Positions 89 through 13,417 of a stretch of 64,000 bases of DNA are shown here, in pieces. Within the stretch, counting starts at the first letter, position 1, and each line of letters begins with the position of its first letter. The notes beneath the pieces were generated by a model. It was not told where the DNA came from. It worked only from the letters and a program-made list of their open reading frames with translations, and did not search any database. The DNA is from Sphaerochaetaceae bacterium (GTDB lineage: Bacteria; Spirochaetota; Spirochaetia; Sphaerochaetales; Sphaerochaetaceae). The translations under genes were made by a program, and so were the position numbers. Where the stretch lies: the NCBI GenBank assembly GCA_024405015.1, contig JAKSPE010000002.1, positions 62,001-126,000 on the forward strand. The letters are read 5' to 3'.

Positions 89-1195
89 ATGAAACTTTCA
101 CAGCCAAAATCAGCCAGAACCATCAACAATGCTAGAGTCTTCGGATGTCTAAGAACCCATAAGGACCTTTCCAAGGCCGAAATCGCCCGTGTGCTGGACC
201 TGAACAAGGTCTCCACCGGTGAAATCGTGGATGACCTGATTGCCGAAGGTCTTGTTTGTGAGACCGGCAAAATGGATAGCGCAAACGGCAGAAAGCCTAC
301 CTGCCTTTCCATCGTAGCCGATGCCAAATATGTTCTGAGTGTTGATATCGGAAGCCGCAACGTCACCGTTGCGCTTTGCAACCTGCTGTCCGAGCCTGTG
401 AACTTTGAACGAATTCCGACCAACACCAACGTGAAGAAGGTGGAGGAGTTCTGTGTCGAGATCATCAAAAGCTGCATTCGCGTCACGCGTCTTGCGGACC
501 AGTCCAAGATTCTTGGCGTGGGAATCTCCGTAGGCGGTAAGGTGTCATCTGATGGACGCACCATTGTCAGCTGTCCATACCTTCCGTGGAAAGATATTCC
601 AATTGCTGAAGCCTTTGAGCAGGTGATGAAACTGCAGGCTGTGGTGCGAAACAGCACCTATGCCTTGGTGGATGCTGAGCGTTATGCCAGTTTTGGGACG
701 GACCTTCTACAGTCGGAAGAACCTATACTATATATAGAATGGGGTGATTCCCTTGGTATGGCACTTGTTCTTCAGGACCGTGTGTTCGGTGCCTCCAACA
801 ACTTTGCCCACCTGAAGGTTTCCCAGAAAGGTCTTTGCACCTGTGGTGAAATCGGCTGCCTTTCTGCCAATGCCAGTGCATGGGCACTAAGCGGTAACAA
901 CGACCTTCACTTGAAGGATATGTGGGACAGGGTGGATACCTATGTGCTTTCCTGCATGGCCAATGCCATTGATATGTGTCGCCAGATCACCGGAAGCACC
1001 AAGGTAGTCATCAGCGGTGAGGGTGCCACCATGACCGATTCTTGTCTTTGTGAACTCAGACGCCTGTGTCCAGGTGTGGATGTGCAGAGATCCAACCTTG
1101 GCGAGAAAGCCAACATCATGGCAGCTGCTGAGATTGCCCTGGACAAGTGGGTGTACATGACCACCATGCTGGAGACCATGAGAAGTTGGCTCTGA
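89..1195 (+). CDS. ROK-family transcriptional regulator (NagC/XylR type)
   Basis: This 368-residue protein has an N-terminal winged helix (about residues 10-65, with AEIARVLDLNKVSTGEIVDDL as the helix-turn-helix) followed by a ROK sugar-kinase-like fold. The start of the kinase fold is visible as SVDIGSRN near residue 85, and the ROK zinc-type cluster CTCGEIGC with its upstream His is near residues 241-256. The glycine-rich GxGIGGG loop of active ROK kinases is replaced by WGDSLGMAL, so the protein is probably only a regulator that senses a sugar. It starts directly at ATG with no Shine-Dalgarno, 6 nt after TATAAT. It is the first gene upstream of, and codirectional with, the array of small secreted proteins, which makes it a candidate regulator of that array; this is inference from position only. 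Confidence 0.85.
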   Translation: MKLSQPKSARTINNARVFGCLRTHKDLSKAEIARVLDLNKVSTGEIVDDLIAEGLVCETGKMDSANGRKPTCLSIVADAKYVLSVDIGSRNVTVALCNLLSEPVNFERIPTNTNVKKVEEFCVEIIKSCIRVTRLADQSKILGVGISVGGKVSSDGRTIVSCPYLPWKDIPIAEAFEQVMKLQAVVRNSTYALVDAERYASFGTDLLQSEEPILYIEWGDSLGMALVLQDRVFGASNNFAHLKVSQKGLCTCGEIGCLSANASAWALSGNNDLHLKDMWDRVDTYVLSCMANAIDMCRQITGSTKVVISGEGATMTDSCLCELRRLCPGVDVQRSNLGEKANIMAAAEIALDKWVYMTTMLETMRSWL

Positions 1196-1223
1196 CAACA
1201 CTGAAAAGGATTTGAAAAATTCT

Positions 1224-1306
1224 TTTACAATTTGTAAAAAATATTTTCAAAAAATATTGACTGCACTTGAAAAAGGTTATATAACAGATAGTGGGCATTG
1301 GAAAAA
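1224..1306 (+). promoter_or_regulatory. Array promoter A
   Basis: TTTACAATTTGTAAA (1224-1238), -35 TTGACT (1257-1262), 17-bp spacer, -10 TATAAC (1280-1285), then TGGGCATTGGAAAAA (1292-1306) at the predicted transcript 5' end. The palindrome begins 33 bp before the -35 box, as in promoters B, D and F. Confidence 0.75.
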
Positions 1307-1340
1307 ATATATTTTCCGAACTAAATTAGGAGATAATAAA

Positions 1341-1922
1341 ATGAAGAAAGCATTCGCAATTCTTTTGGTTGTCCTTCTTGCAGCATCCACAGTTTTCGCT
1401 GCAACAAATGGCGGTAACACAGTTACAGTCAAGTCCATCGTTGGTAAGATCACACTTGCTCAGGCAAATGAACAGGCAGGAAACGACCCAACAGTATCTG
1501 GTCTCTATGAGCTTAAGGTAAACAATTCCGACGCTTATACAAGTGATAAGAACATCTCACAGGCTGATGTTGTTGCTTCTTTCACAGTTGTTCAGAACGC
1601 TGAGACAAGAACAAACGAAGGTATTCGTCTTGATGTTGAGGCTTCCACTCTCGCTTTCACAGAGAATGGCACAACATATCAGACAGCTCTTCCAGCAATC
1701 ACAGAGTTCGCTCCAGTAGTTTCTTCTGAAGACTGCGGTGTTGAAAACTCAGTTACAGGTGCTGCAGTTGCAATCAACCTTACATACAGAGGTGTTGACA
1801 GAGCAGTTGCTAAGGGTCAGGTCATGTGCAGCTTCAAGGCAACTTGGGCACAGAAAGAAGAGCTTGCAGCTCACCCAGGCACATACGCAGCTAACATCAC
1901 ACTCGCTTACACCATTCAGTAA
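1341..1922 (+). CDS. Small secreted array protein A
   Basis: A 193-residue protein of unrecognised family. Residues 1-21 form a classical Sec signal peptide (MKKAFAILLVVLLAASTVFA, cut before ATNGG). The mature part is rich in Thr, Ala and Val. It ends in the array-wide motif: an aromatic-Trp strand (CSFKATWAQK), then GTYAANITLAYTIQ at the C-terminus. The internal ATG at 1341 was chosen over the longer open frame because AGGAG lies just upstream and the signal peptide begins there. It is the most divergent member by its N-terminal half. It has its own promoter and a rho-independent terminator, so it is a single-gene unit. Function is unknown; a beta-sandwich surface or fibre subunit is inferred from the strand-like C-terminus. 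Confidence 0.85.
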   Translation: MKKAFAILLVVLLAASTVFAATNGGNTVTVKSIVGKITLAQANEQAGNDPTVSGLYELKVNNSDAYTSDKNISQADVVASFTVVQNAETRTNEGIRLDVEASTLAFTENGTTYQTALPAITEFAPVVSSEDCGVENSVTGAAVAINLTYRGVDRAVAKGQVMCSFKATWAQKEELAAHPGTYAANITLAYTIQ

Positions 1923-1948
1923 TCAGAGTCCTGAAAGTGAGGAAAAGG

Positions 1949-1972
1949 CGTCCCGGAAACGGGACGTTTTTT
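1949..1972 (+). terminator. Terminator after array gene A
   Basis: Hairpin CGTCCC-GGAAA-CGGGACG region followed by six T. Confidence 0.85.
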
Positions 1973-2045
1973 ATTGCCTTTAGAATGGATCTCCATTCCG
2001 GATCCAAGGTATGAAAAGATGTTGTATAAAATCGTTTCAAATAAT

Positions 2046-2127
2046 TTTACAAATTTGTAAAAAATTTTTGAAAAATAATTGACAATAAAAACAACCTATA
2101 GTACTTTACATATGGGCATTGGAAAAA
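2046..2127 (+). promoter_or_regulatory. Array promoter B
   Basis: Perfect palindrome TTTACAAATTTGTAAA (2046-2061), TTGACA (2079-2084), 17-bp spacer, weak -10 TACTTT (2102-2107), TGGGCATTGGAAAAA (2113-2127). With transcription starting near 2114 the palindrome centre is near -61, the position of a class I activator site. A strong -35 with a poor -10 also suggests dependence on an activator. Confidence 0.75.
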
Positions 2128-2153
2128 ATATATTCGTTTAAGAGGTAAAACAA

Positions 2154-2783
2154 ATGAAGAAAACAATCGCTATTCTTGCTGTTCTGGCTCTTGCACTTGC
2201 TTGCGTATTCGCAGCTGAGACTCACAAGATTACTCTGAGCACAACAATTGATGAAGTCATTCCATCATTCCAGTTTAGATATGGTACAGCTGGTGCTTAC
2301 ACAAACGACGATGCTGATTCAAATGACATCGCATCACAGGCATACTATGGCCAGTATGATGCAACAAATGACTTTTCAGTAGCCGATGCAATCGATACAG
2401 GAAAAGACCTTTCCAAAGAAGACATTTCTGCTGACTTCTATGCCGTTCTTGCAATTGGTGGAAAGCAGGACAACAAGACATATACATTGAAGTTCACAGC
2501 TGGTGCATTCAACACAACAGCTAATCATGTTGATGATCCAACACCTTGCACAAGTTCTTCAATCGAAAGTGTTCTTACAAGCGATTCTCAGTATGTCGTA
2601 GTTTCAGCTGGTGCTGGAAGCGACAGTGCAGACAATGTCAAGTCCTGGAAGATCAAGCTTGTCGGTTCTGCTGCAACATCAGCAATCGATCTTGTCAAGT
2701 TCTCAGCAACATGGGCAAAGAATACTGATGCTGATATGGGCACATTTACAGCCGATGTCACAATGGTTGTAACAGCTCAGTAA
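2154..2783 (+). CDS. Small secreted array protein B
   Basis: A 209-residue protein with a Sec signal peptide (MKKTIAILAVLALALACVFA). The mature part opens with THKITLSTTIDEVIPSFQFRYG, the array motif 'hydrophobic strand, then P-x-F-Q-F'. A central KTYTLKFTAGAF strand matches NTYTLRLNAGGF in protein C and xYTLTVTATDL in D to F. The C-terminus is KFSATWAKNTDADMGTFTADVTMVVTAQ in type (quoted in two parts: KFSATWAKN, GTFTADVTMVVTAQ). B and C form a close pair. Thr codons are almost all ACA, as in the two abundant binding-protein genes of the window, which suggests high expression. AGAGG precedes the start. The function is not recognised. Confidence 0.85.
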   Translation: MKKTIAILAVLALALACVFAAETHKITLSTTIDEVIPSFQFRYGTAGAYTNDDADSNDIASQAYYGQYDATNDFSVADAIDTGKDLSKEDISADFYAVLAIGGKQDNKTYTLKFTAGAFNTTANHVDDPTPCTSSSIESVLTSDSQYVVVSAGAGSDSADNVKSWKIKLVGSAATSAIDLVKFSATWAKNTDADMGTFTADVTMVVTAQ

Positions 2784-2808
2784 TCGATTGTATAAGTTCA
2801 ATGAATGG

Positions 2809-2832
2809 GGACCGGAGAAATCTGGTCCTTTT
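2809..2832 (+). terminator. Terminator after array gene B
   Basis: GGACC-stem paired with GGTCC across a GGAGAAATCT loop, followed by TTTTC. Confidence 0.7.
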
Positions 2833-2902
2833 CATTTTATGGAAAAAATCTCCAATATTGTAAAAAAAATTTTTATCTTAAATTATTATCAATGAAAAAT
2901 TA

Positions 2903-2931
2903 TTGACAGTTGTTGATATCATTGGTAATAT
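2903..2931 (+). promoter_or_regulatory. Array promoter C (divergent type)
   Basis: TTGACA (2903-2908), 17-bp spacer, TAATAT (2926-2931). This -10 is better than in the other members, but the upstream palindrome and the TGGGCATTGG start element are both missing. Confidence 0.75.
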
Positions 2932-2968
2932 CTAGATAGAAAGTAAAATCGGGTAAGGAGGGAGTGTA

Positions 2969-3595
2969 ATGAAGAAACTCTCAATTGTTCTTTTCATTTT
3001 TATTGCTGCACTTCCATCTGTTTTCGCTGCAACCCTTAGTGAAACCCATGAGATTCGTCTCAAAACACGTATTGGTAGTGAGACTCCTGTTTTTCAGTTT
3101 GAATTTACAAGTGGAATGAGATTCCCGAATTCTGATACCAACATTATTACTAACAAGGGTGAAAATGCTTTTGATGCCAACGTTTCATACAATGAATATG
3201 GAACACAGGAGACAGCAATTGAGGTAGAGGACATTTCCAGAAAAGATTTGGATCTGCTGTTTACCGTCTATCTTGCAAATGAGGCAAAGAGCAATAACAC
3301 ATATACGTTGCGATTGAATGCTGGTGGATTTGCAGTCACAAGGTTTGACGTTCCTGGTACCGTGGAACCAATGGATGTTCTGGTTTCTCCTGCTTCTGAC
3401 ATTGATGCGAGAGTTGGAGTCAGAGTCGGGTCGGTCGTGGATGGTTCTAGTATAGACATGTGTTTTAATGGTGCTGCATGTCGAATTGGTAAGTTGGCAA
3501 CATTTGAAGTGCTATATCAGAGGGATGGTACTATTGATCCTTCATTGTCAGGTTATTTTGCAAACATTACATTGGAGATTTCTTCCAGCAATTAA
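2969..3595 (+). CDS. Small secreted array protein C
   Basis: A 208-residue protein with a signal peptide (MKKLSIVLFIFIAALPSVFA). It is related to B: THEIRLKTRIGSETPVFQFEF, a KDLDLLFTVYLA strand, NTYTLRLNAGGF, and a C-terminal GYFANITLEISSSN. It starts after a strong Shine-Dalgarno (AAGGAGG). Codon choice is more mixed (Arg CGT, CGA, AGA; Thr ACC, ACG, ACT) than in its neighbours, it lacks the shared start element and palindrome, and no hairpin terminator is evident after it. It therefore appears to be a member outside the common control, probably less expressed, or an older copy. Confidence 0.8.
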   Translation: MKKLSIVLFIFIAALPSVFAATLSETHEIRLKTRIGSETPVFQFEFTSGMRFPNSDTNIITNKGENAFDANVSYNEYGTQETAIEVEDISRKDLDLLFTVYLANEAKSNNTYTLRLNAGGFAVTRFDVPGTVEPMDVLVSPASDIDARVGVRVGSVVDGSSIDMCFNGAACRIGKLATFEVLYQRDGTIDPSLSGYFANITLEISSSN

Positions 3596-3660
3596 GTGTT
3601 TTATGTAACCGGCATGGAATTTCGTTGTTAAAAAGATATAATAAAACAATGAAATAAATT

Positions 3661-3742
3661 TTTACAAATTTAAAAATAAGTTGTAAAAATTTATTGACAA
3701 TTATAGTCCTTTGGTATAGATTACAGTTGGGCATTGGAAAAA
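3661..3742 (+). promoter_or_regulatory. Array promoter D
   Basis: Left half-site TTTACAAATTT at 3661, again 33 bp before TTGACA (3694-3699); the right half-site is degraded. The -10 is TATAGA (3715-3720) or TAGATT (3717-3722). TGGGCATTGGAAAAA is at 3728-3742. Confidence 0.7.
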
Positions 3743-3763
3743 CATAAAAAAGAGGAAAAAGAA

Positions 3764-4423
3764 ATGAAGAAAGTTATTACAATTCTTGCAATCATGATGA
3801 TTCTGGTTTCTGCAGTATTCGCAGAAGTAGCAGCTGACGCTCACGGTGCAGCTAACATCAACATCAATGTCAACATTGGTGACGAATTCCCAAGATTCCA
3901 GCTTGCAACAAAGACTGGAACAACAGCAATTGTAAGCGATAATGTCGCAGCAAATGCAGGTACCCCAGCAGAGGCAACACTCACTGATGCAAATAAGGCA
4001 CTTCTTACACAGTCTGGAAAGCAGATTGAGGTTGTTTTCTCCATCAATCAGATCAAGAATGCTCGTTGTTTCGATGCTTACACACTCACTGTAACAGCAA
4101 CAGACCTTGTTCTTGTTAAGTCTACAGATGAGTCTGTAAAGAGAGATCTTGCAACAGCTCTTACAGCAGCAACAGATAAGCAGAAATTTACAGTTGTGTC
4201 AGGAACAGCAACACATACTTCATCAGCTGTCGCAGATATTGACTATACTGGAACAGACGAGGATGCAATCTTAATTGATTATCAGGGTGTTCTTGTTGCA
4301 GCAGAAGATGTAGATTCAAAGAGAGTCGAAATTGGAACAGCATCAGTCAAGTGGAATTCCAACATCGATGCTATGTCTGGTGACTACAAGGCAACAGTAA
4401 CTCTCACAGTTTCAGCTCAGTAA
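3764..4423 (+). CDS. Small secreted array protein D
   Basis: A 219-residue protein with a signal peptide ending SAVFA (MKKVITILAIMMILVSAVFA). The mature protein begins with an HGAANININVNIGDEFPRFQL segment (20-residue core NININVNIGDEFPRFQL). It has the FSINQIKNARCF-AYTLTVTATDLVL block shared with E and F, and ends GDYKATVTLTVSAQ. D, E and F are a subgroup of recent duplicates. The start at 3764 follows AGAGGAAAAAG and gives the signal peptide; an upstream ATG would add a charged extension encoded by the conserved leader. Function is unknown. Confidence 0.85.
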   Translation: MKKVITILAIMMILVSAVFAEVAADAHGAANININVNIGDEFPRFQLATKTGTTAIVSDNVAANAGTPAEATLTDANKALLTQSGKQIEVVFSINQIKNARCFDAYTLTVTATDLVLVKSTDESVKRDLATALTAATDKQKFTVVSGTATHTSSAVADIDYTGTDEDAILIDYQGVLVAAEDVDSKRVEIGTASVKWNSNIDAMSGDYKATVTLTVSAQ

Positions 4424-4447
4424 TAGAAATAATAAATGCAAAATAGA

Positions 4448-4473
4448 GGCGCTTCTTCGGAGGCGTCTTTTTT
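4448..4473 (+). terminator. Terminator after array gene D
   Basis: GGCGCTTC-TTCG-GAGGCGTC with two G-T pairs, followed by TTTTTT. Confidence 0.8.
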
Positions 4474-4479
4474 ATTATG

Positions 4480-4943
4480 CGCCTTTAAGACCGTGAGCCG
4501 GCGAAAGCCGGATCACAAATAAACCACCTGTTCTGCAGGTGTGGTAGGCCGAAGGGCTCTACCCAAAAAAAGCCTTACCTCTGGTAGAATGTGAAGTGTT
4601 CAAGTCCACATAAATACCAAGGAGGTAAGGCGAATGGCAAACAAACGTGACGAACACAGCCACACGAAGTGGCTATGCAAGTATCATATCGTATTCACGC
4701 CGAAATATCGACGCAAAATCATCTACGGATCGCTTCGGGGAGACATAGGGAAGATTCTGAAGGCGCTGTGCCAGTATGGTAGGGCTGAACGCTGAGACGA
4801 TAAGGAAATGCATCAGGAAACAGAAGATTGCTGACGTATTCCTGGACAAGCTGACGAGAGAGAGGAATGACCTCTTTGAGAAGTGGCTTATAACCGATGC
4901 AGTACATACCGCGTCTTTTAGATGTGTTTTTGATTTTTGGTAG
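4480..4943 (+). pseudogene. Decayed IS200/IS605-type element: left end and broken TnpA
   Basis: A coding start at 4634 (after GGAGGT) gives MANKRDEHSHTKW-LCKYHIVFTPKYRRKIIYG, the N-terminus of single-strand HUH (Y1) transposases, with stop at 4793-4795 after 53 residues. In another frame, 4782 onward reads GLNAETIRKCIRKQ, which matches the C-terminal region of the same family, so the middle, including the HUH motif and tyrosine, has been deleted with a frame change. Upstream, 4491-4560 contains subterminal hairpins (CCGGC-GAAA-GCCGG and an ACCACCTG/CAGGTGTGGT stem) typical of IS200 left ends. The element sits between the terminator of D and the promoter of E. Confidence 0.8.
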
Positions 4944-5042
4944 ACAAGCACATGATTTGATTTGGAATAGAGCTCAGTTTGAGTCCGGAACTCGTGGAGG
5001 AAGAGGGGAGAGTGACGTGATGTCGATTATTGATTAAAAAAT

Positions 5043-5127
5043 TTTACAAATATAGTTTAAAATTTTGAAAAAAATAATTGACAACAACTAGTATTCTACT
5101 GTACTTTATATGTGGGCATTGGAAAAA
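5043..5127 (+). promoter_or_regulatory. Array promoter E
   Basis: Degenerate palindrome TTTACAAATATAGTTT from 5043, TTGACA (5078-5083), TACTTT (5102-5107, 18-bp spacer), TGGGCATTGGAAAAA (5113-5127). Confidence 0.7.
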
Positions 5128-5150
5128 TATATAAAAAAGAGGAAAAACAA

Positions 5151-5822
5151 ATGAAGAAAGTTATTACAGTTTTCGCAATCATGATGGTTTTGGTTTCAGC
5201 CGTTTTCGCAGCAGAGGCAGCTTCTGATGCTCATGGTACAGCTAAGATTAACATTGACACTCTTATCACAGCACAGTATCCAGCATACCAGCTCGAGGCA
5301 AAGACAGTTAGTGCTGGTGCAATCACTACAGCAACAAGTGACGTCGCAGGTACACCAACTGCAGGTCTTGTTACCATTACAGACGATACCCTGCTTAAAG
5401 CAGATGCAACAGTTACATTCGCAATCAATCAGATTAAGACATCCAAGTGTTTCCACTCATATGATCTTACAGTTACAGCTACAGACCTCATTCTCATGAA
5501 TGCAGGTAAGACAGCTGCTGCTACAAAGACTGATGTTGGAATGGATGATGATGAGTTTGCTGCTGCTGTTAAGTCTTTTGCTGTAAACGATTCAACTCCA
5601 ACAATTACTGCTGCAGACAACATCGCTAGTTTGGCACAGGGTGTTGCTCGGTTCTCTGCTGAAGAAAACAAGCTTACAGCTAAGTATCTTGGTGGTATCA
5701 AGATTGCTGATGGCAAAGTTGAAGAAGTTGGAACATTCTCTTGCACATGGGCAAAGAATGAGCTGGCAATTCCTGGTCCTTATCAGGCAACAGTAACACT
5801 TACAGTTACAACAACTGTCTAA
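5151..5822 (+). CDS. Small secreted array protein E
   Basis: A 223-residue protein, the longest of the array. Signal peptide MKKVITVFAIMMVLVSAVFA is nearly the same as in D. The mature part has AKINIDTLITAQYPAYQLEAK, FAINQIKTSKCFHSYDLTVTATDLIL in two parts as in D (FAINQIKTSKCF, YDLTVTATDLIL), FSCTWAKN, and a C-terminal GPYQATVTLTVTTTV. The start at 5151 is preceded by AAGAGG. It is flanked by two IS200 remnants. It is a close relative of D and F; function unknown. Confidence 0.85.
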   Translation: MKKVITVFAIMMVLVSAVFAAEAASDAHGTAKINIDTLITAQYPAYQLEAKTVSAGAITTATSDVAGTPTAGLVTITDDTLLKADATVTFAINQIKTSKCFHSYDLTVTATDLILMNAGKTAAATKTDVGMDDDEFAAAVKSFAVNDSTPTITAADNIASLAQGVARFSAEENKLTAKYLGGIKIADGKVEEVGTFSCTWAKNELAIPGPYQATVTLTVTTTV

Positions 5823-5846
5823 GTACTTATCAGAGATAAGGGTAGG

Positions 5847-5872
5847 CTGCCGGAGAGATCCGGCAGTTTTTT
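5847..5872 (+). terminator. Terminator after array gene E
   Basis: CTGCCGG-AGAGAT-CCGGCAG followed by TTTTTT. The same hairpin sequence ends array gene F. Confidence 0.9.
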
Positions 5873-5877
5873 GTATA

Positions 5878-6118
5878 AACGAAAACCTCCACATCGTATG
5901 GAGGTTCCGGAGAGCTTTAGCTTTGCCCAAAACAAAAAGAATCTCCATAATCGAAGGTGCGACCCGCCAGTTGCACCGAAGATTAAGGAGATTCCTATGA
6001 ACGAGGAAAGTTTAGCTCATACGAAATGGAATTGCAAATACCACATAGTGTTTGCACCGAAGTACAGACGCCAGATTATTTATTAACGAGATCCTCCAGT
6101 ATGGTGAGAAGAATGTCT
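5878..6118 (+). pseudogene. Second IS200/IS605 TnpA fragment
   Basis: The frame 5997-6086 (after AAGGAG) encodes 29 residues, AHTKWNCKYHIVFAPKYRRQ being the diagnostic part, then stops. A further frame, NEILQYGEKNV, follows. This is the N-terminal tip of a Y1 transposase, distinct in sequence from the fragment at 4634, so it comes from a different element. Upstream, 5882-5908 and 5936-5995 hold inverted repeats (AACCTCCA/TGGAGGTT; AATCTCC/GGAGATT) as expected for a left end. Confidence 0.75.
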
Positions 6119-6148
6119 GACTTTTGTATAAACCCTTTTTATTATTTT

Positions 6149-6230
6149 TTTACAAATTTGTAAAAAATATTTGAAAAATAATTGACATCAAAAGCATACT
6201 AGTGTACTTTACACATGGGCATTGGAAAAA
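6149..6230 (+). promoter_or_regulatory. Array promoter F
   Basis: Perfect TTTACAAATTTGTAAA (6149-6164), TTGACA (6182-6187), 17-bp spacer, TACTTT (6205-6210), TGGGCATTGGAAAAA (6216-6230). Spacing is identical to promoter B. Confidence 0.8.
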
Positions 6231-6251
6231 AAGAATTAAGAGGAATAAGAA

Positions 6252-6878
6252 ATGAAAAAGATTATTACTATTCTTGCAGTTATGCTTATCGTTGTTTGTG
6301 CTGCATTTGCAGATGCAACAGAACCAAATGGTGATGCAAAGATTCTTGTCAACGCAAAGATTGGTAACCAGTATCCAGCTTTCCAGCTTCAGGCTGTTGG
6401 TGTTGCAGATGCAAAGGGATCTATTTCCGGATCTGCTGATAAAGCTCTCAAGGGAGAGACAAAGGATGCTGTTACTATTACAGAAGATGCTCTTCTTGGA
6501 GGAAACGTAACAGTCAATTTTGCTATCAATCAGGTCAAGATGTCCAGAACAAAGGTCGGATATGTCCTTACTGTTACAGCAACAGACCTTAAAATGGTGA
6601 ATGATGCTTCTGGCGCAGCTTATACAGGTGCAATTGATGCAAATAAGAAGTTCGAGGTTTCTGGAAATCCTACTATCACAAAGGGTACAGCAGGTGAGTA
6701 TACATATACTGAGGCTGCAAATGCTCTTACCGTTAGATACAATGGCAAGAAGGTTGATGCCTCAACAGCTAATGCTGTTCAGCTTGGAACTTTCTCTTGC
6801 GTATGGCAGCAGAATGCTGATGCAGATGCTGGTGACTACCAGGCAACTGTTACACTTACAATTACATCCGCAAGCTGA
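6252..6878 (+). CDS. Small secreted array protein F
   Basis: A 208-residue protein with signal peptide MKKIITILAVMLIVVCAAFA. The mature part has AKILVNAKIGNQYPAFQLQA, FAINQVKMSRTKVGYVLTV, TATDLKMV, FSCVWQQN, and ends GDYQATVTLTITSAS. It belongs to the D/E/F subgroup. AAGAGGAATAAG precedes the ATG. Function unknown; predicted exported beta-rich protein. Confidence 0.85.
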   Translation: MKKIITILAVMLIVVCAAFADATEPNGDAKILVNAKIGNQYPAFQLQAVGVADAKGSISGSADKALKGETKDAVTITEDALLGGNVTVNFAINQVKMSRTKVGYVLTVTATDLKMVNDASGAAYTGAIDANKKFEVSGNPTITKGTAGEYTYTEAANALTVRYNGKKVDASTANAVQLGTFSCVWQQNADADAGDYQATVTLTITSAS

Positions 6879-6904
6879 CAAAAGCTTTAGAGTAAAACAA
6901 GAGA

Positions 6905-6928
6905 CTGCCGGAGAGATCCGGCAGTTTT
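6905..6928 (+). terminator. Terminator after array gene F
   Basis: CTGCCGG-AGAGAT-CCGGCAG followed by TTTTATTTTG. Confidence 0.85.
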
Positions 6929-6975
6929 ATTTTGTCCAAATTTTTGAAATTTTCTTTTTAAAAATTTTCTTTTCG

Positions 6976-7039
6976 ATTTGTAAAAATAATTGACAAAAAG
7001 AAGTGAAATGCTGTAATTTACAACTGGGCATTGGGAAAA
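6976..7039 (+). promoter_or_regulatory. Array promoter G
   Basis: Only a right half-site, GATTTGTAAA, remains and it lies much closer to the -35 than elsewhere. TTGACA (6990-6995), TAATTT (7014-7019), TGGGCATTGGGAAAA (7025-7039). Confidence 0.65.
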
Positions 7040-7060
7040 CATAAATTAAGAGGAACGAAA

Positions 7061-7630
7061 ATGAAGAAAGTTATTTCAATTCTTGCAATTCTTATGGTTA
7101 TCGCATGTGCAGCATTTGCAGCAACTGGAGATTTGCTTAACATCAATGCAAAGGTTCCAGCAACAGATCCTATCTACTCTCTTAAGGGTGGACTTTCAGA
7201 TTCAACCGGTAAAGTAGCAACTGGTACAGCAGCAAATGGAACAATCACAACAGATGTTGATATTTCTACAACTGATATCTACATCTATGTCCAGGTTTTC
7301 CAGACAAATAAGTCAAAGACACTCAAGAGTGGAAGCCTTACTTTGGAAGGAACAGCACTTGAATATCTTACCAGCTCTACAGCCGCTCCAGCTGCTTCAA
7401 ATGCAACAGCCGGTTCAACAGATAAGGCAACTAATCATTATAAGGTTACAGCAGCTGTATCAGGAGCAACAGCAACATTCGCAGTTGAATACGATGGAAA
7501 AAACGTTGCAGAAAACTCTGTAATCGGTTCCGCTCTCTTCAAGTGGACTCACAATGACGAACTTGAGGTTGCTGATGGTGTTGAAAACTTCTACACAGCA
7601 ACAATCACACTTACTTACACAGTACAGTAA
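7061..7630 (+). CDS. Small secreted array protein G
   Basis: A 189-residue protein with signal peptide MKKVISILAILMVIACAAFA. The mature part starts ATGDLLNINAKVPATDPIYS-LKGG, very like protein H (DTLKITAKVPQEKPEFIMKGG in parts). It then has a VYVQVFQTNKSKTLK-type strand, FKWTHNDE, and a C-terminal FYTATITLTYTVQ. G and H form a subgroup. The start at 7061 follows AAGAGGAACG. Function unknown. Confidence 0.85.
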   Translation: MKKVISILAILMVIACAAFAATGDLLNINAKVPATDPIYSLKGGLSDSTGKVATGTAANGTITTDVDISTTDIYIYVQVFQTNKSKTLKSGSLTLEGTALEYLTSSTAAPAASNATAGSTDKATNHYKVTAAVSGATATFAVEYDGKNVAENSVIGSALFKWTHNDELEVADGVENFYTATITLTYTVQ

Positions 7631-7651
7631 GAAATAATTGTAATAGAGATT

Positions 7652-7681
7652 GAGGCTACCTTCGGGTAGCTTCTTTTTTTT
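7652..7681 (+). terminator. Terminator after array gene G
   Basis: GAGGCTACC-TTCG-GGTAGCTTC followed by seven or more T. Confidence 0.9.
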
Positions 7682-7799
7682 ATCTGTGGGCCATCTGTTT
7701 ATTGCCAACCGGATCTGTTTTGGTTGCCCGTTTTGCTCCCTGCCAAAGTCCTGGTAATTCAGATTGTCAAATCATAGTAAAAATCTATGTGAAAAATCT

Positions 7800-7880
7800 T
7801 TTTCAAATTTGTAAAAATAATTTTAAAAAATAATTGACGAAAAAATTTTATCTAACTATACTGTCATTGTTGGAAATGGA
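7800..7880 (+). promoter_or_regulatory. Array promoter H
   Basis: Near-palindrome TTTTCAAATTTGTAAA (7800-7815), 34 bp before TTGACG (7834-7839); 17-bp spacer; good -10 TATACT (7857-7862). The start element is degenerate (GTCATTGTTGGAAAT). From 7682 to 7800 nothing else is recognisable. Confidence 0.7.
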
Positions 7881-7901
7881 ATCCGACAAAGGTATATTCA
7901 G

Positions 7902-8453
7902 ATGAAGAAACTTCTTATGGTTCTGACATTCGTATTGATGACTCTTGCAGCTTGTGTAGCACTTGAAGGTGATACACTCAAGATCACTGCAAAGGTTCCT
8001 CAGGAGAAGCCGGAATTCATCATGAAGGGAGGTTTCACTTCAGCTGATGCTACAACAGTTGCTACACAGGCTGGTGCACTTCTTGCTTCCAACAAGGACA
8101 TCTCAGCAGAAAGCATCACAGTCTTTGTAAAGCTTTTCCAGAGCAACAAGGCTAAGTACAAGAACACATTTACTCTCACAGTCACAGCATCTGACATGTC
8201 TATGACTGATGCAAACGGAACCTATTCCACAACTGCAACAGCCCTTACAACAACAAAGATCACAACAACAAATCTTGAAGTCACAGGTTCTGCTGAAGCT
8301 AACGTCGCAAGTTTTGCAATGAACTACACAAACGGCAAGCCGGTTTCTGAGAACACAGCAATTGGCGAAGCATCCTTCACCTGGGAAGCAAACGAAGGTC
8401 TTCCAGTTGGAGACTATAGTGCAACTATTACATTGGGCTACACAGCACCATGA
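7902..8453 (+). CDS. Small secreted array protein H
   Basis: A 183-residue protein, the shortest and last of the array. Signal peptide is MKKLLMVLTFVLMTLAACVA (cut near ALEGD). It shares with G the N-terminal LKITAKVPQEKPEFIMKGG, a VFVKLFQSNKAKYKN block, FTLTVTASDMSM, FTWEANE and a C-terminal GDYSATITLGYTAP. No strong Shine-Dalgarno is visible (AAAGGTATATTCAG). Function unknown. Confidence 0.8.
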   Translation: MKKLLMVLTFVLMTLAACVALEGDTLKITAKVPQEKPEFIMKGGFTSADATTVATQAGALLASNKDISAESITVFVKLFQSNKAKYKNTFTLTVTASDMSMTDANGTYSTTATALTTTKITTTNLEVTGSAEANVASFAMNYTNGKPVSENTAIGEASFTWEANEGLPVGDYSATITLGYTAP

Positions 8454-8481
8454 TTTTCTCGTATACAATTTTTCTCTTTGC

Positions 8482-8508
8482 GCTGGTCGAAAGGCCAGCT
8501 CTTTTTTT
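8482..8508 (+). terminator. Terminator after array gene H
   Basis: GCTGGTC-GAAA-GGCCAGC, then CTCTTTTTTT. Confidence 0.85.
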
Positions 8509-8594
8509 GTCGGAGAGTAGGATGGAGTGCCTGTTGCGCTCTTGCCGTTTGGTCAAATATCAATTAACTTTGTTACTGAATTTCGGAGGGAATT

Positions 8595-10451
8595 ATGGAA
8601 AGAAAACAGTTCAAGACTGAAGTATCTGAACTTCTTCACCTTATCATTCATTCACTTTACTCACACAAGGAAATCTTTCTTCGCGAGCTCGTATCCAATG
8701 CATCCGATGCTTTGGACAAACTGAAATACAAGACTCTCGTCGACGGCAAATCACCAGAAGGCGAGCTTCGCATCGACATCAGCTTCACAGAGGGTAAGGA
8801 ACGAACCCTCACCATTTCCGATAACGGAATTGGAATGACCCATGACGAGCTGAACGAGAACCTGGGAACCATCGCAAGATCCGGAACTAAGCATTTCATC
8901 CAGAACCTCTCCGAGGACCAGAAGAAGGACAGCAACCTCATTGGTCAGTTCGGTGTCGGTTTCTATTCTGCCTACATGGTTGCCGACAAGGTTGAAGTCA
9001 CTTCCCGTGCCTACGGAAGCGAAGAGGCCTACAAGTGGACCAGTGACGGTAAGGAGAAGTACACCATCGAAGAGGCAACTCGTGACACCTGCGGAACCAC
9101 CATCGTCGTTTACCTGAACGAGGAAGGCAAGGAGTATGCAAACCGCTGGCAGATCGAAAACCTCATCAAGCAGTACAGCGACCACATTGCTTACCCAATT
9201 TTCCTGTCCTATGACCAGAACACCTACGATGACAAGTACAACGTCACCGGTACCGAGCACAAGGTCGAGCAGATCAACAGCGCAGCAGCACTGTGGAGAA
9301 GAAGCAAGAGCGAGCTCAAGGAAGAGGACTACAACGACTTTTACAAGAACACCTGCTACGACGAGGAGAACCCACTGTTCTACATCCATACAAAGGCAGA
9401 GGGTGCTACCGAGTACACAACACTGTTCTTCGTTCCAGCCAAGGCTCCGTTTGACATGTATCATGCCGACTACAAGCCAGGTGTGAAGCTCTACGTCAAG
9501 AGAGTCTACATCACTGACGATGAGAAGGAGCTTCTTCCAACCTACCTGCGCTTTGTCCGTGGTGTCATCGATAGTGAGGACCTGCCTCTGAACGTCTCCC
9601 GTGAGATTCTTCAGCAGAACAAGGTCATGACCACCATCCGAAACGCATCCGTGAAGAAGATTCTCGGTGAGTTCAAGAAGATCAGCGAGCAGAACCCTGA
9701 GCTTTACACAAAGTTCATTGAGCAGTTCAACCGCCCACTGAAGGAAGGTCTTTACCAGGATTATGCTAACCGTGATGAGCTTTTGGGTCTGGTTCGCTTC
9801 AAGAGCACAGCCGTGGAAGGCTACACCTCTCTTGCTGCCTACAAGGAGCGAATGATCGCTGACCAGAAGAGCATCTACTACATCACAGGTTCCGATGAGA
9901 GCGCTCTTCGCAACTCCCCACTTCTTGCTTCCTACAAGGAGAAGGGTATTGAAGTGCTTCTCATGACCGATGACATTGATGATATCGTCATCTCCTCTGT
10001 CGGTAAGTTCCAGGACATTGCACTGAAGGCTGTGAACAAGAGCGGTGCCATGGATGACTTCATGACCGAGGACGAGAAGAAGCAGGTCAAGGAGCAGGGT
10101 TCTGAAATCACCGAAAAGCTCAAGAAGGCTCTTGGAGACAAGGTCAAGGATGTTATCGTCTCCACAAGACTTGCCGATGTCTCTGCCGTTGTCGTCTCCG
10201 ACGAGAACGACCCATCGGTTCAGATGCAGCAGGTTCTCAAGGCTATGGGACAGGGTGCCTACGAGGCAACTGCTCCAATTCTTGAGGTCAATGCCAACGA
10301 CTCCTTCGTCAAGAAGATCGTTGCATCAGACGATGAAGAGTATGTGGCAAACGCAGCTAGCGTTCTTCTGGATCAGGCACTGCTTTCTGAGGGCGTAATG
10401 CCAAAGAACCCAGCTGAGTTTGCTAGAAAGCTTCACGCACTTCTCGGCTGA
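8595..10451 (+). CDS. htpG: Hsp90-family chaperone HtpG
   Basis: A cytosolic ATP-driven chaperone of 618 residues, the usual length for HtpG. The N-terminal GHKL ATPase shows the canonical boxes: ELVSNASDALDKLKY (about residue 30), SDNGIGMTHDEL (about 75) and GQFGVGFYSAYMVADKVEV in the lid/ATP region (about 117). The middle domain has FVRGVIDSEDLPLNVSREIL (about 320), and the last 110 residues fit the dimerisation domain. A Shine-Dalgarno GGAGGG precedes the ATG. Codon use is standard for the chromosome, unlike the ACA-rich array upstream. It is monocistronic with its own terminator. Confidence 0.98.
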   Translation: MERKQFKTEVSELLHLIIHSLYSHKEIFLRELVSNASDALDKLKYKTLVDGKSPEGELRIDISFTEGKERTLTISDNGIGMTHDELNENLGTIARSGTKHFIQNLSEDQKKDSNLIGQFGVGFYSAYMVADKVEVTSRAYGSEEAYKWTSDGKEKYTIEEATRDTCGTTIVVYLNEEGKEYANRWQIENLIKQYSDHIAYPIFLSYDQNTYDDKYNVTGTEHKVEQINSAAALWRRSKSELKEEDYNDFYKNTCYDEENPLFYIHTKAEGATEYTTLFFVPAKAPFDMYHADYKPGVKLYVKRVYITDDEKELLPTYLRFVRGVIDSEDLPLNVSREILQQNKVMTTIRNASVKKILGEFKKISEQNPELYTKFIEQFNRPLKEGLYQDYANRDELLGLVRFKSTAVEGYTSLAAYKERMIADQKSIYYITGSDESALRNSPLLASYKEKGIEVLLMTDDIDDIVISSVGKFQDIALKAVNKSGAMDDFMTEDEKKQVKEQGSEITEKLKKALGDKVKDVIVSTRLADVSAVVVSDENDPSVQMQQVLKAMGQGAYEATAPILEVNANDSFVKKIVASDDEEYVANAASVLLDQALLSEGVMPKNPAEFARKLHALLG

Positions 10452-10474
10452 ACACTTCACTAACTTAGATTACG

Positions 10475-10506
10475 ACTCCATGTCCTTCGGGATGTGGAGT
10501 TTTTTA
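10475..10506 (+). terminator. Terminator after htpG
   Basis: ACTCCATGTCC-TTCG-GGATGTGGAGT followed by TTTTTT. Confidence 0.9.
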
Positions 10507-10513
10507 TTATCTC

Positions 10514-10537
10514 TTATTGTTTCATTTATTGTGTCAT
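10514..10537 (+). repeat. Two tandem 12-bp repeats upstream of the ATP-binding regulator
   Basis: TTATTGTTTCAT (10514-10525) and TTATTGTGTCAT (10526-10537) abut exactly, differing at one base, and are followed by a TATAAT-like box near 10540. Short-period repeats also precede the related genes at 16214 and 21598. Confidence 0.6.
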
Positions 10538-10562
10538 GATATAATAAACCATCGAGGTTGAT

Positions 10563-11522
10563 ATGTTTGAAAGTGAGATGTCCTACTTCTATTCCAAACT
10601 GACTTTGGTAAATCAGGTTTCTCCGGTTCAGGATCTGACATTTGACTACATGACAGAACAGTACAGACGTAAAGGTTATGATGTTGGGGATAATCTTCTA
10701 GTCCAGTTGCAGCTTCTGATGCCAAGTGGAGAATACAACTATTTGGCTTACCTTCTCTCTGACCAAAACAGCCTCTATATCCAATATGCTCGCTATGCAA
10801 CAGATGATGTGTTTGATCTTGTAGAGCGCAAGGCTTTTACAAACCAGTCTCTGCTCAAGACTGCGCATGAACTCTATGATTTTCTGCAAAGCCATAACAC
10901 AACCTATTCACGGATACTTCCAACTGGACGTCTGGATCTGGAGAAGGTGAATTCCACAGCCCTCAGAGAGATTGTGACAAATGCGCTTGTTCATAACGAT
11001 TACAGAAAGGGTGGGCTTCCAACGTTCGAAGAGTTCACAGACCGAATGGAAATCTCTTCATATGGTGGTCTTCCGAATGATGTGACACCAGATGATTTCT
11101 TCAATGGTTATTCCCTTCCTGTGAACCCGCAGCTTATTCGAGTATTTCGAGATCTTGGACTTGCAGAGAGTCTTGGAACGGGAATCCGAAGAGTTCTTCA
11201 TTTCTATCCAAGAGACATCTTTCTATTCTCCTCAAATTTCCTTCGAGTCTCTTTGCCATTTTCATCTCCAGAAGATTTGAGAAAAGATGGAAGTGGAAAG
11301 CCAAAGACCGTGTTGGAACTTTTGAAATCCAGTCCTAATCTGACAATCAAGGAACTGTCCCTTGCACTGGGGGTCTCCGTATCAACCGTCAATCGCGAAA
11401 TTGCCAGATTGAGTGCAGAAGGAGCATTGTTCAGAATCGGATCAAAAAAGACCGGCTACTGGAATGTTGAGGATTCTTGTGATTATTCTGTGGCTGCTGA
11501 GACCGTGAAGGAATATAGGTAA
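10563..11522 (+). CDS. ATP-binding winged-helix regulator, RecG-C/COG2865 type, lacking the AlbA domain
   Basis: A 319-residue protein. The central part (about 110-230) matches the histidine-kinase-like ATPase domain of COG2865 proteins: STALREIVTNALVHNDYRKG, the box DRMEISSYGGLP, and the GLAESLGTGIRRVL loop. A C-terminal winged helix follows (KPKTVLELLKSSPNLTIKEL, then VSVSTVNREIARLSAEGAL). Family members normally carry an AlbA_2 domain first, as the 432-residue relative at 16214 does; here the protein opens after that domain, so it is either a short natural form or an N-terminal deletion. Shine-Dalgarno GAGG precedes the start. Probable autoregulator or defence/stress regulator; the target is unknown. 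Confidence 0.75.
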   Translation: MFESEMSYFYSKLTLVNQVSPVQDLTFDYMTEQYRRKGYDVGDNLLVQLQLLMPSGEYNYLAYLLSDQNSLYIQYARYATDDVFDLVERKAFTNQSLLKTAHELYDFLQSHNTTYSRILPTGRLDLEKVNSTALREIVTNALVHNDYRKGGLPTFEEFTDRMEISSYGGLPNDVTPDDFFNGYSLPVNPQLIRVFRDLGLAESLGTGIRRVLHFYPRDIFLFSSNFLRVSLPFSSPEDLRKDGSGKPKTVLELLKSSPNLTIKELSLALGVSVSTVNREIARLSAEGALFRIGSKKTGYWNVEDSCDYSVAAETVKEYR

Positions 11523-11532
11523 GGCTTTCTCG

Positions 11533-11712
11533 TCAAAGCTCTTCTTTCCCTAGGAAGTCTGAAATGTAGATGACCTCAATCCCTTCAATGTTCTGGATGT
11601 CATCAAGAAGAAGGCAGTATCCTGGCCTGAGTAGATCGGAATTGAAAGTTTTTCAAGTTCAACCTGAAAAACTTCCTGATTGTAGGTAGGTTTTTCAACT
11701 TCAAGTAGAAAA
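11533..11712 (-). pseudogene. Remnant of a gene with its upstream repeats, middle deleted
   Basis: Read on the minus strand, two copies of an inverted motif AAGTTTTTC-n-GAAAAACYT (11712 to 11647) run directly into the frame KTFNSDLLRPGYCLLLDDIQ-NIEGIEVIYISDFL ending at a stop at 11535-11533. There is no room for a protein start or body. The pattern, short operator-like repeats then only the C-terminal end, looks like an internal deletion of a gene of the repeat-fronted type seen elsewhere in the window. The original protein family is not recognised. Confidence 0.4.
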
Positions 11713-11778
11713 ACTTTCTTTTCTGTGGCAGTCCTTTACTCGTGTTTTGCTAATGGCTTGTTTTGGGAAATTTTGGAA

Positions 11779-12378
11779 TCAGTTCTTGTCCAGTCCAATG
11801 AGGTAGGTCTCAAAGCTGTCGTTTCTGCAGGCCTTTGGCTTTAGGGTCTTTGCCTTCTTGAACATGGTTCGCATGGTCTGGAGAATCTGCTGCTGACCGC
11901 CACCCTGGAAAATCTTGATCACCAGGTTTCCATGCTGCTTGAGCTGCTCCTGAGCTAGGTACACAACCTGCTCGGCAAGCCATTCGCTGCGGGTGGTATC
12001 CACGGTTCGGTTTCCGGTTGTCATTGGGGCTGCATCGCTGATGATGGCGTCAAATGGACCATGGCTTGTCAATTTTGCACGAATCTCTTTGGAAAAGGCA
12101 TCGCCTTCGTAGGCAATGACCGTCGGTGGAACTGGGTTGAGGTTCAGCGGATTCAGATCCACGCTGATGATCTGGCCTTTTCCCTTCAGCAGCATTCGAT
12201 GGGTGTACAGAGTCCAGCTTCCTGGGGCAGCTCCAACGTCGAGCACGGTATCACCTGGCTTGATGATGTTGTTTGCTTGTTGGATCTCTTCGAGTTTGTA
12301 GACGCTGCGTGCAGGGTAGCCCTCACGACGAGCACGTAATGTATAGGAATCTGCGGTATCTCTTCTGCTTGTAGCCAT
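11779..12378 (-). CDS. rlmE: 23S rRNA 2'-O-uridine methyltransferase RlmE (FtsJ/RrmJ)
   Basis: A 199-residue S-adenosylmethionine-dependent methyltransferase that modifies U2552 (E. coli numbering) in the large subunit. Visible motifs are ARSVYKLEEI with the first catalytic Lys, the SAM loop LDVGAAPGSWTLY, ISDAAPMTTGNR with the catalytic Asp, and LVIKIFQGG with the second catalytic Lys. I chose the ATG at 12378 (MATSRRD): the -10 box TACAAT (12390-12385) ends 6 nt before it and there is no Shine-Dalgarno, so the mRNA is predicted to be leaderless. An upstream in-frame TTG would place the start upstream of that promoter. Confidence 0.93.
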   Translation of the reverse strand: MATSRRDTADSYTLRARREGYPARSVYKLEEIQQANNIIKPGDTVLDVGAAPGSWTLYTHRMLLKGKGQIISVDLNPLNLNPVPPTVIAYEGDAFSKEIRAKLTSHGPFDAIISDAAPMTTGNRTVDTTRSEWLAEQVVYLAQEQLKQHGNLVIKIFQGGGQQQILQTMRTMFKKAKTLKPKACRNDSFETYLIGLDKN

Positions 12379-12487
12379 GCCTGCATTGTAGCACAATTTG
12401 CATTTATAAAAAAGTTTGCAGATGTCATGCCCTGGTGGTATACTGCATGTAGTTTAGTAAACACAATTAAAAGGGGAGATACTTTAC

Positions 12488-13417
12488 ATGAGCAGCTTCA
12501 AAGATCTTAGAGTTGTAGACAACTTCTATCAGACATCTCTGTTTTTCCCAATGCCTACCGTCCTGGTCAGCACATTGGCCGATGATGGTTCCACCTCACT
12601 TGGACCATATTCCCTCTGCCAGCCATACTACATCGCCGGCAAGGATTATTATGCAATGCTTTTGGAGTGCAGAAACTCATCCAATACTGCACAGCACATT
12701 CTCAAGACAAAGAAGTGCGTCATCAATTTCATCCCAGACGACAAGAAGTACTTCAAGGAAGCTGTTCGCCTTGGATGGCCAGGAGACACTCCTGCCGAGA
12801 AGATGAAGAACTGCAGCTTCACCCTGGAAGACGGACTTCGTGCAGAAGCCGATCCTAACGGTCTTTACCCAAAGGTCATCGCAGAAGCTTATCAGGCTAT
12901 CGAGTGCACATGGATGGACACTCTTGATGGAGCAGACAAGGACCAGCCAGGTATCCTGGACGGTTACGAGGGCCCATATCACGATTTCAACGGCATCACC
13001 TCCAAGTTCGGAGCACACTTCATTCTCCGCGTCGACAAGATTCTCATGAAGGAGAAGTATCACAGTGCCATCATCAATGGTGTCCGCGCCAAAGACTTCC
13101 CAAGAGTACCGGTTGACTATGGTTATCGCGACAGCAAGAACTTCTGGTACACAAAGTTCAGAAAGCCAATTCCTGAGCTTCTGCCAATGAGAAAGACAAC
13201 TGTCCAGTCTGTCATGTACGCCGCAAAGAGAATCGATCCAAGCGTCACATTCACCGAGGATGCATGCGCCAAGCTTGTCAACGTTCCTCGAATCTTCCTG
13301 CCTACCGCTCTCAAGGGCTGTGTCGCATGGGCAAAGGAACATGGCGTTTCCGTCATCACCGAAAAGGAGATGGCAATCATCAACGACAAGCGTGCAAAGG
13401 AAAAGGCACAGAAGTAA
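12488..13417 (+). CDS. Flavin reductase-like FMN-binding protein (flavoredoxin type)
   Basis: A 309-residue protein of the FMN-binding split-barrel superfamily. The first half carries the family pattern: FPMPTVLVSTLADDGSTSLG, then PYSLCQPYYIAGKDYYAMLL, then NSSNTAQHILKTKKCVINFI (the N-T-A-x-N/H phosphate-binding area). It probably binds FMN and acts in electron transfer or as a flavin reductase in the cytosol; the partner is not shown. It is longer than the usual 170-210 residues, with an extra C-terminal 100 residues. Start follows AGGGGAG. It is monocistronic. Confidence 0.75.
   Translation: MSSFKDLRVVDNFYQTSLFFPMPTVLVSTLADDGSTSLGPYSLCQPYYIAGKDYYAMLLECRNSSNTAQHILKTKKCVINFIPDDKKYFKEAVRLGWPGDTPAEKMKNCSFTLEDGLRAEADPNGLYPKVIAEAYQAIECTWMDTLDGADKDQPGILDGYEGPYHDFNGITSKFGAHFILRVDKILMKEKYHSAIINGVRAKDFPRVPVDYGYRDSKNFWYTKFRKPIPELLPMRKTTVQSVMYAAKRIDPSVTFTEDACAKLVNVPRIFLPTALKGCVAWAKEHGVSVITEKEMAIINDKRAKEKAQK

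Follow-up and report, generated by a model that had tools for sequence, protein, structure and literature searches.

Eight tandem secreted proteins of a spirochaete, probable subunits of a divergent chaperone–usher pilus

The window analysed here, a stretch of 64,000 nucleotides from a contig of a Sphaerochaetaceae spirochaete (host genome 2.03 Mb, 85% complete), carries eight codirectional paralogous genes spanning 1341-8453 on the forward strand. We propose, with a probability of roughly 0.83, that their products (183-223 aa, subunits A to H) serve as pilin subunits, either alternative or joint, in a divergent chaperone–usher (CU) pilus. An earlier note on this DNA had described eight small secreted paralogues that might represent an undescribed surface fibre or adhesin family. 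The former description is borne out by the forward-strand ORFs and by signal peptides on all eight proteins, each starting with MKK followed by a hydrophobic stretch and Ala; the latter is supported, and narrowed to CU pilins, by relatives located in CU operons and by the Foldseek search of subunit F. The shared motifs named at that time, from the N-terminal P-x-F/Y-Q type to the C-terminal G-x-[YF] ending, correspond to common alignment columns in the eight. In the proposed subgroup D/E/F, the one compared, F shares 40-42% identity with D and E.

With regard to gene linkage, eight loci (seven from genus g16 and one from g11) share a uniform order of chaperone, usher, three subunit genes, and a fourth gene coding for 183-207 aa. 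The family profile matches this fourth gene at all of these loci except L177, and in the congener G004, a family member, a chaperone and an usher follow one another in a row. Relatives are thus linked to CU genes in seven of the eight operons and in G004, while the array genes of the window are unlinked to the CU pair of their own genome. The 11 regions read for linkage represent a non-random sample, since most were chosen for a known family match or an usher.

The genome possesses a single CU pair, located on contig C48, where a PapD_N chaperone adjoins an usher of 1123 aa. The absence of usher and chaperone genes pointed out by the earlier note is correct for the window and misleading otherwise, since the pair is present on this contig. 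The predicted PapD-type periplasmic chaperone reaches 31.8 bits against PF00345 (cut-off 23), being the sole PapD_N protein above the curated cut-off in the genome, and its profile (A5) aligns in hhalign with seven known chaperones at a probability of 99.6 (E 7e-24). An outer-membrane usher is likewise predicted by profile–profile match, though it remains under the Pfam curated cut-off: the usher profile (A4) aligns with five known ushers, including no spirochaete row, over 726 columns (probability 99.9, E 1.1e-35), and the protein itself scores 20.1 bits against Pfam Usher (cut-off 27.1), a model with matches in none of 13 genomes. In control comparisons, A4 gave 0.2% with one other spirochaete protein of 564 aa and 0.5% with chaperones, and A5 gave 8% with classical pilins, via the signal peptide only. 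Searched against PDB sequences, the chaperone profile matched EcpB alone (E 0.0023), and nothing credible was found for the usher profile. The latter detected 107 positive genomes and was strong in 104 of 139 genomes of the bacterial family; G001, G021 and G157, matching only its N-terminal part, were not counted as strong. In the genome search for chaperone and usher, G058 appeared as weak among 26 (E 8e-8, 25% identity). Furthermore, two C4 genes coding for 203 and 449 aa have homologues among the subunit genes of the other-genus CU operons, at the second and third subunit positions.

No Pfam or NCBIfam family fits the eight proteins; weak matches to thymidine phosphorylase, DUF6465, PAD_M and others fell under the cut-offs and were taken as chance, and no credible PDB match by sequence was obtained for array proteins or family members. 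A profile built from the eight finds long matches in 11 of 11 genomes of the genus, its own included, with best E-values per genome from 2e-65 to 2e-21. Conversely, a profile of the fourth subunit gene, with rows from two other genera and none from the window, recovers five of the eight window proteins among 357 proteins (E 5e-6 to 8e-5), A, C and G not being listed at E<=0.5 in the same set. Following removal of the signal peptides, three (D, E and F) are recovered, with E from 8e-4 to 1e-3; the list up to E<=1 contains 21 proteins, every one a family member. On these comparisons, the features shared by the eight exceed chance. Because signal peptides accounted for much of the earlier match lists, a second family profile (A6) was built from mature chains; it comprises 33 of 37 collected members and two phage rows, omitting L071_1354, L069_3991, L076_4575 and L066_8761. 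Member collection was restricted to lengths of 140-260, and one long protein (L065_7726) and two ORFs that were mis-framed or fused (L080_9015 and L072_8250) were removed by hand before iteration. There are 36 family-positive genomes, several of them matching via the C-terminal part of the profile only, and 33 show a strong usher match, the remaining three being 63-73% complete. The co-occurrence of family and usher is modest (p 0.007, in a statistic that ignores relatedness).

By sequence, the family stands apart from known pilins. SCPU (PF05229) gave no match in the eight (E<=1) or in 35 members (E<=0.1), and hhalign probabilities were not significant with archaic pilins (2%) and with classical pilins of the FimA type (0.2%). 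By these values, neither classical pilin nor spore-coat-U membership is supported by sequence, and the resemblance to spore-coat-U folds put forward earlier does not extend to family membership. According to the part of PMC4654587 consulted, archaic pilin domains have invariant cysteines; these were not found here, and no cysteine column is common to the eight because mature G and H are cysteine-free. A donor-like N-terminal pattern, defined post hoc from the sequences, occurs in 19 of 35 mature chains, compared with a mean of 3.8 and a maximum of 11 in 1000 rounds of shuffling. It is present in five of the eight window proteins, A, E and F lacking it, and lies off the aligned segment in two of the 19 (L064 and L082:14184). 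The G-x-Y ending stands just ahead of the C-terminus, an arrangement that the archaic pilins in alignment A11 also show.

Structure prediction of the mature F chain yielded a model with a pLDDT of 80.6 and a pTM of 0.75, residues 1-22 lying outside the fold. In a Foldseek search of the PDB, CU pilus chains made up 13 of the best 20 matches, with CfaB as the top structural match (E 5e-4) and CsuA/B at 0.018, which fits the suggestion of an ending similar to the strand that closes pilin-like Ig folds. Only three matches reached E<=0.001, and the query TM-scores of pilus chains in the best 20 were 0.20-0.36. With VIA-align, Z was at most 6.7, glycosidase domains leading and CU pilus chains at 5.1-6.0; cohesins, glycosidase domains and sortase pilins obtained like Z, and no pilin family stood out. 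The subunit A model is poor (pLDDT 60.7), and its structural matches point nowhere clearly. An incomplete Ig-like fold, devoid of the last strand, is a tentative prediction, F resembling pilus chains at low TM and Z. Nothing at E<=0.001 was found in a viral structure library.

Upstream of the genes (Table 1), a TTGAC(A) box lies within 90 bp of the start in all eight, and six share a leader, TGGGCATTGG[AG]AAA (also given as GGGCATTGG), the exact form of which occurs six times only in the whole genome. Terminator-like hairpins follow seven genes, and the array region holds 15 on both strands, compared with 5.7 expected. These features favour the earlier view that each gene is a separate transcription unit, whereas the promoter scan speaks for it only at C, D and H, where a consensus-type pair was found at the TTGAC(A) box; at A, B, E, F and G, the -10 was under the scan threshold. 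No Rfam family passed the gathering threshold in the window. Subunit A is located behind a ROK-type regulator, a position repeated in five further contigs of the genus; this regulator is not claimed as the palindrome binder, because the palindrome was absent before the group A genes of the relatives examined. Among Thr codons, the share of ACA is 72% in the eight genes, compared with 37% in 14 selected other genes of the window, 81% in the gene at 55708 and 22% in htpG. Expression of the eight genes may be very high.

Table 1. Coding sequences and putative regulatory elements of the array (window coordinates)
Feature	Position	Strand	Details
Box and leader before A	1257-1305	+	TTGACT (1257), leader motif GGGCATTGGAAAA (1293-1305)
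Subunit A	1341-1922	+	193 aa
Terminator-like hairpin after A	1943-1972	+	
Module before B	2046-2126	+	palindrome TTTACAAATTTGTAAA (2046-2061), TTGACA (2079), leader motif (2114-2126)
Subunit B	2154-2783	+	209 aa
Promoter-like site before C	2903-2931	+	TTGACA-17-TAATAT
Subunit C	2969-3595	+	208 aa; without shared leader motif, without terminator-like hairpin after it
Module before D	3661-3741	+	palindrome with 2 mismatches (3661-3676), TTGACA (3694), leader motif (3729-3741)
Subunit D	3764-4423	+	219 aa
Box and leader before E	5078-5126	+	TTGACA, leader motif (5114-5126)
Subunit E	5151-5822	+	223 aa
Module before F	6149-6229	+	palindrome (6149-6164), TTGACA (6182), leader motif (6217-6229)
Subunit F	6252-6878	+	208 aa; mature chain modelled
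Box and leader before G	6990-7038	+	TTGACA, leader motif GGGCATTGGGAAA (7026-7038)
Subunit G	7061-7630	+	189 aa
Elements before H	7800-7862	+	palindrome with 1 mismatch (7800-7815), promoter-like TTGACG-17-TATACT
Subunit H	7902-8453	+	183 aa; without shared leader motif
Remaining terminator-like hairpins	2807-2830, 4445-4470, 5844-5869, 6901-6928, 7652-7673, 8482-8499		after B, D, E, F, G, H

In the proposed pathway, each subunit would be exported by Sec and adopt an incomplete Ig-like fold; the C48 chaperone would hold it, and the C48 usher would thread the subunits into a fibre. The N-terminal segment, with alternating hydrophobics ahead of the P-x-[FY] strand, would fill the groove of the next subunit. 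The two C4 proteins may act as minor or tip subunits, and most of the fibre would consist of the eight, provided that their expression is as strong as the upstream regions suggest.

The eight could instead be monomeric Ig-like secreted proteins, for instance periplasmic or surface-bound binding proteins, that make no use of the CU pair. The distance of the array from the pair in its own genome, the VIA-align Z of cohesins, glycosidase domains and sortase pilins, equal to that of pilus chains, and the lack of sequence match to known pilins all suit this explanation, which we nevertheless regard as improbable given that relatives reside within CU operons, that Foldseek ranks CU pilus chains first, and that the N-terminal pattern and the G-x-Y ending are as in the archaic pilins of A11. 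It is even harder to credit that the array builds a surface sheath or S-layer-like coat independently of an usher: an envelope protein made in bulk may be what the common upstream modules and the codon bias point to, but relatives are encoded alongside chaperone and usher.

A tailed-phage contig (L166) harbours homologues of two array groups and tip-like subunits beside head genes, the major head gene being immediately followed by two family members. The latter arrangement could indicate that the bacterium domesticated tailed-phage proteins with a structural or surface role. Such an origin seems very unlikely, as a single phage contig stands against presence in every genome of the genus, operons with chaperone and usher, and signal peptides on the members; moreover, no usher was found in the phage record, possibly a fragment. 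The F-like phage protein had no counterpart among the phage records of INPHARED, and searching viral sequences with the tip-like protein of the phage returned the same contig only; another viral match (L167) was rejected as a signal peptide alone, within an 81-aa ORF. Returning to the CU pilus, a rather doubtful extension would be a mosaic fibre, in which about a dozen subunits from at least four places depend on one usher, the eight being alternative major subunits set by eight promoters, and the phage, carrying its own major and tip-like subunits, rebuilds the host fibre during infection, e.g., to block rival phages.

Most likely, both the pilin family and the occurrence of CU pili in Spirochaetota are new, as are the dispersal of subunits from a single usher and their amplification as separate units. 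No report of CU pili in this phylum was found in the literature searched, including the parts of PMC4793230 and PMC11833123 consulted, most subscription papers and all preprints being outside its scope. The usher distribution would extend the CU pathway to these spirochaetes and explain many unannotated secreted proteins in this bacterial family. Surface fibres and chaperone complexes are predicted for subunits that were recognised by none of the family libraries tried, and the phage contig provides a case of phage-borne pilin-like genes.

As far as the consulted part of a 2015 paper extends (PMC4654587), archaic CU pili are placed in Proteobacteria, Cyanobacteria and Deinococcus-Thermus, whilst two proteobacterial classes are given for the other CU types. 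The spirochaete system resembles archaic (sigma) pili, such as Csu of Acinetobacter baumannii, in its PapD-type chaperone and usher, in subunits that have a putative alternating segment at the N-terminus and a G-x-Y strand at the C-terminus, and in several small subunits accompanied by one gene of about twice the size. It differs in its phylum, in subunits devoid of an SCPU match and a shared cysteine column, in subunit genes located away from the pair in their own genome, and in ushers that, among those read, are mostly of 1050-1180 aa (975 in G004) and begin with a long region rich in proline and charged residues. Alternative (alpha) pili, represented by CFA/I and ECP, provide the top structural match of F (CfaB) and the match of the chaperone profile (EcpB), but have another gene layout and no subunit sequence match was found. 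A CU locus of another spirochaete family (G045, L165) likewise contains both chaperone and usher, together with an adjoining 215-aa gene matching the family profile weakly (E 8e-4); it differs in encoding an SCPU protein (PF05229, E 5.7e-10) and an 803-aa usher that is 28% identical to one annotated in Leptolyngbya.

The array of eight secreted paralogues proposed in the earlier note is real: every product starts with a signal peptide, and all share a strand in the TLTVTATDL region, an aromatic/Trp strand and the C-terminal ending G-x-[YF]-x-A-x-[IV]-T-[LM], from which single members deviate. The genes are codirectional and flanked by what we take, from reading the sequences, to be a ROK-type regulator gene and htpG. 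The suspicion that the family is undescribed is supported; no fitting model was found in either the Pfam or the NCBIfam library. Long family matches occur in all 11 genomes of the genus, and the two named matches of a contig search are 'Spirochaetes bacterium isolate MAG-R016' and 'Sphaerochaeta sp. Phil3'. The genome studied here, a 2.03-Mb draft that is 85% complete and whose contig C12 supplies the window (62001-126000), holds two further clear members outside the array and one weak member on contig C4. In five congener loci (L069, L071, L073, L075, L078), relatives of gene A (group A) lie 3' of the ROK gene, and in L075 one further member lies between group A and htpG, so the length of the array varies at a fixed place. 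In genome G062 of genus g11, roughly 3.5 kb separate a gene that by eye resembles htpG from a nine-gene secreted array, six genes of which match the pilin profile; the array may be old at the htpG site.

Features and their coordinates
Feature	Location	Remark
ROK-type regulator gene	window 89-1195	
Genes A-H	window 1341-8453, +	
D/E gap	window 4424-5150	transposase-like remnant
E/F gap	window 5823-6251	transposase-like remnant
htpG	window 8595-10451	
208-aa family member	own C12 50601-51227 (L067 6602-7228)	
Further clear member	own C48:54313	
Five consecutive secreted genes	own C4, L066 7890-12047	upstream of leuS-like gene (named by eye)
Nine-gene array	L174 (G062) 772-12683	
Second small secreted family	L071 823-1308; L078 8201-8692	161-163 aa
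Six secreted phage genes	L166 7301-11709	directly behind major head gene
Phage terminase	L166	phrog_2, 4e-34
Phage portal	L166	phrog_213, 2e-61
Phage head protease	L166	phrog_207, 5e-48
Phage major head protein	L166	phrog_138, 8e-56
Phage tail sheath	L166	phrog_23, 1e-43

Several side observations concern these neighbourhoods. The 208-aa member, whose upstream region is unlike that of the array, adjoins a MatE-type transporter, an arrangement kept in four congeners (L069, L071, L073, L076; names by eye). The second secreted family, with the motif VLIAxxPPASEVxQVIS, adjoins group A in both congeners. The D/E and E/F gaps, the two long ones, contain remnants (HTKWxCKYHIVFxPKYRRxII) resembling by eye the start of IS200-type transposases.

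TTGAC(A) occurs within 90 bp upstream of the start of all eight genes, and the promoter scan listed a consensus-type promoter at this box for C, D and H only. Downstream of it, GGGCATTGG[AG]AAA is present in six genes and absent from C and H; the exact TGGGCATTGG[AG]AAA has six copies genome-wide, and TTTACAAATTTGTAAA, when one mismatch is allowed, is found at three places, in both cases all within the array. Terminator-like hairpins follow seven of the eight genes. By eye, several family genes of congeners are preceded by A/T tracts, by TTGAC(A) and by a leader resembling GTGGGCATT. Of the Thr codons, 72% are ACA in the array genes and 37% in 14 other window genes, but the value is 22% in htpG, which is often a busy gene. 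The array genes may be highly expressed.

For the surface fibre guessed at earlier, the best reading is a chaperone-usher pilus whose new pilin family is the array family, and we give a probability of about 0.83 to the eight proteins being subunits handled by a chaperone-usher machine. Congener G004 encodes, after a 190-aa family member, a PapD_N protein (E 7e-8) and then a protein of 975 aa. A search with the latter gave matches in 26 of 61 genomes (one weak), and PF00345 in 23 of the 61 (21 above the cut-off); our genome has one usher and one PF00345 chaperone match, adjoining each other on contig C48. The Pfam Usher model matched in 0 of 13 genomes yet was positive for E. coli, so that a spirochaete usher can escape the usual annotation. 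In profile-profile comparisons, the usher profile matched five known ushers (E 1.1e-35 across 726 columns) and the chaperone profile known chaperones (E 7e-24), three controls reaching probabilities of 0.2-8%. Judged by these profiles, the 975-aa-type family is an usher family. In several other genera (L154, L157, L158, L160-L164), V-type ATPase-like genes (named by eye) follow the usher gene; this neighbourhood is fixed and may be of use in locating ushers elsewhere.

Among the 139 genomes of the bacterial family, the mature-chain profile found the pilin family in 36 and the usher profile matched 107 (104 strongly). A strong usher is present in 33 of the 36, the others (G003 and G008 with none, G001 with a weak match) being 63-73% complete, versus 71 of the 103 pilin-negative genomes (p 0.007, kinship among genomes being ignored). 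This association is modest, and in many usher genomes the mature-chain profile reached no subunit. Gene order is stronger evidence than co-occurrence. An usher is present in eight of 11 fetched regions, most of them chosen for an already known family match or usher, and all eight show the order chaperone, usher, three subunit genes (220-245, 204-243 and 423-565 aa) and a fourth gene of 183-207 aa, after which come additional genes (about 160-240 aa), many of whose products end in G-x-Y-like strands. Seven of the eight fourth genes match the family profile; conversely, a profile built from the fourth genes recovers five of the eight window proteins (three once signal peptides are removed), and family members only among 357 proteins from 21 sources plus the phage. 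In our genome, the second-gene profile matches a 203-aa gene on C4 (2e-9) and, weakly, subunit F (0.0026), the third-gene profile matches a 449-aa gene on C4 (2e-8), and the first-gene profile matched no gene. Within the C4 cluster, two of the five secreted genes match these second and third subunits, and a 183-aa gene weakly matches the pilin family.

The predicted structure of mature F (12-row alignment; pLDDT 80.6, pTM 0.75) leaves residues 1-22 outside the fold. Chaperone-usher pilus chains make up 13 of its top 20 Foldseek matches in the PDB, a list including CfaB, CS17, FimG, FimF, Caf1, the CFA/I tip complex and CsuA/B; TM-scores against pilus chains are low (0.20-0.36), and a second structural aligner gave no clear winner. 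The group A model is poor (pLDDT 60.7), its match list being headed by a fimbrial lectin. Of 35 chains, 19 carry within residues 1-30 a donor-like pattern that was defined post hoc from the sequences (misplaced in two of the 19); shuffles gave a mean of 3.8 and a maximum of 11.

Subunit-like genes also occur on the 207,680-base tailed-phage contig IMGVR_UViG_3300021399_000101 (L166), which we label T4-like. The first of its six secreted genes (222 aa) shares 34% identity with group A and the next (211 aa) 39% with F, over mature parts; two of the remaining four match the second- and third-subunit profiles (1e-9, 2.5e-16). No usher was found in this record, nor a second such phage in phage-record and viral searches with its F-like and tip-like proteins. 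Array subunits may be used as alternatives, and the phage copies may have a role.

In the archaic pilin CsuA/B, mutation showed that such a donor-like pattern drives polymerisation (PMC4654587). Within the class to which our genome belongs, a genome of a different family (G045, locus L165) carries an archaic-type chaperone-usher locus that includes an SCPU protein.
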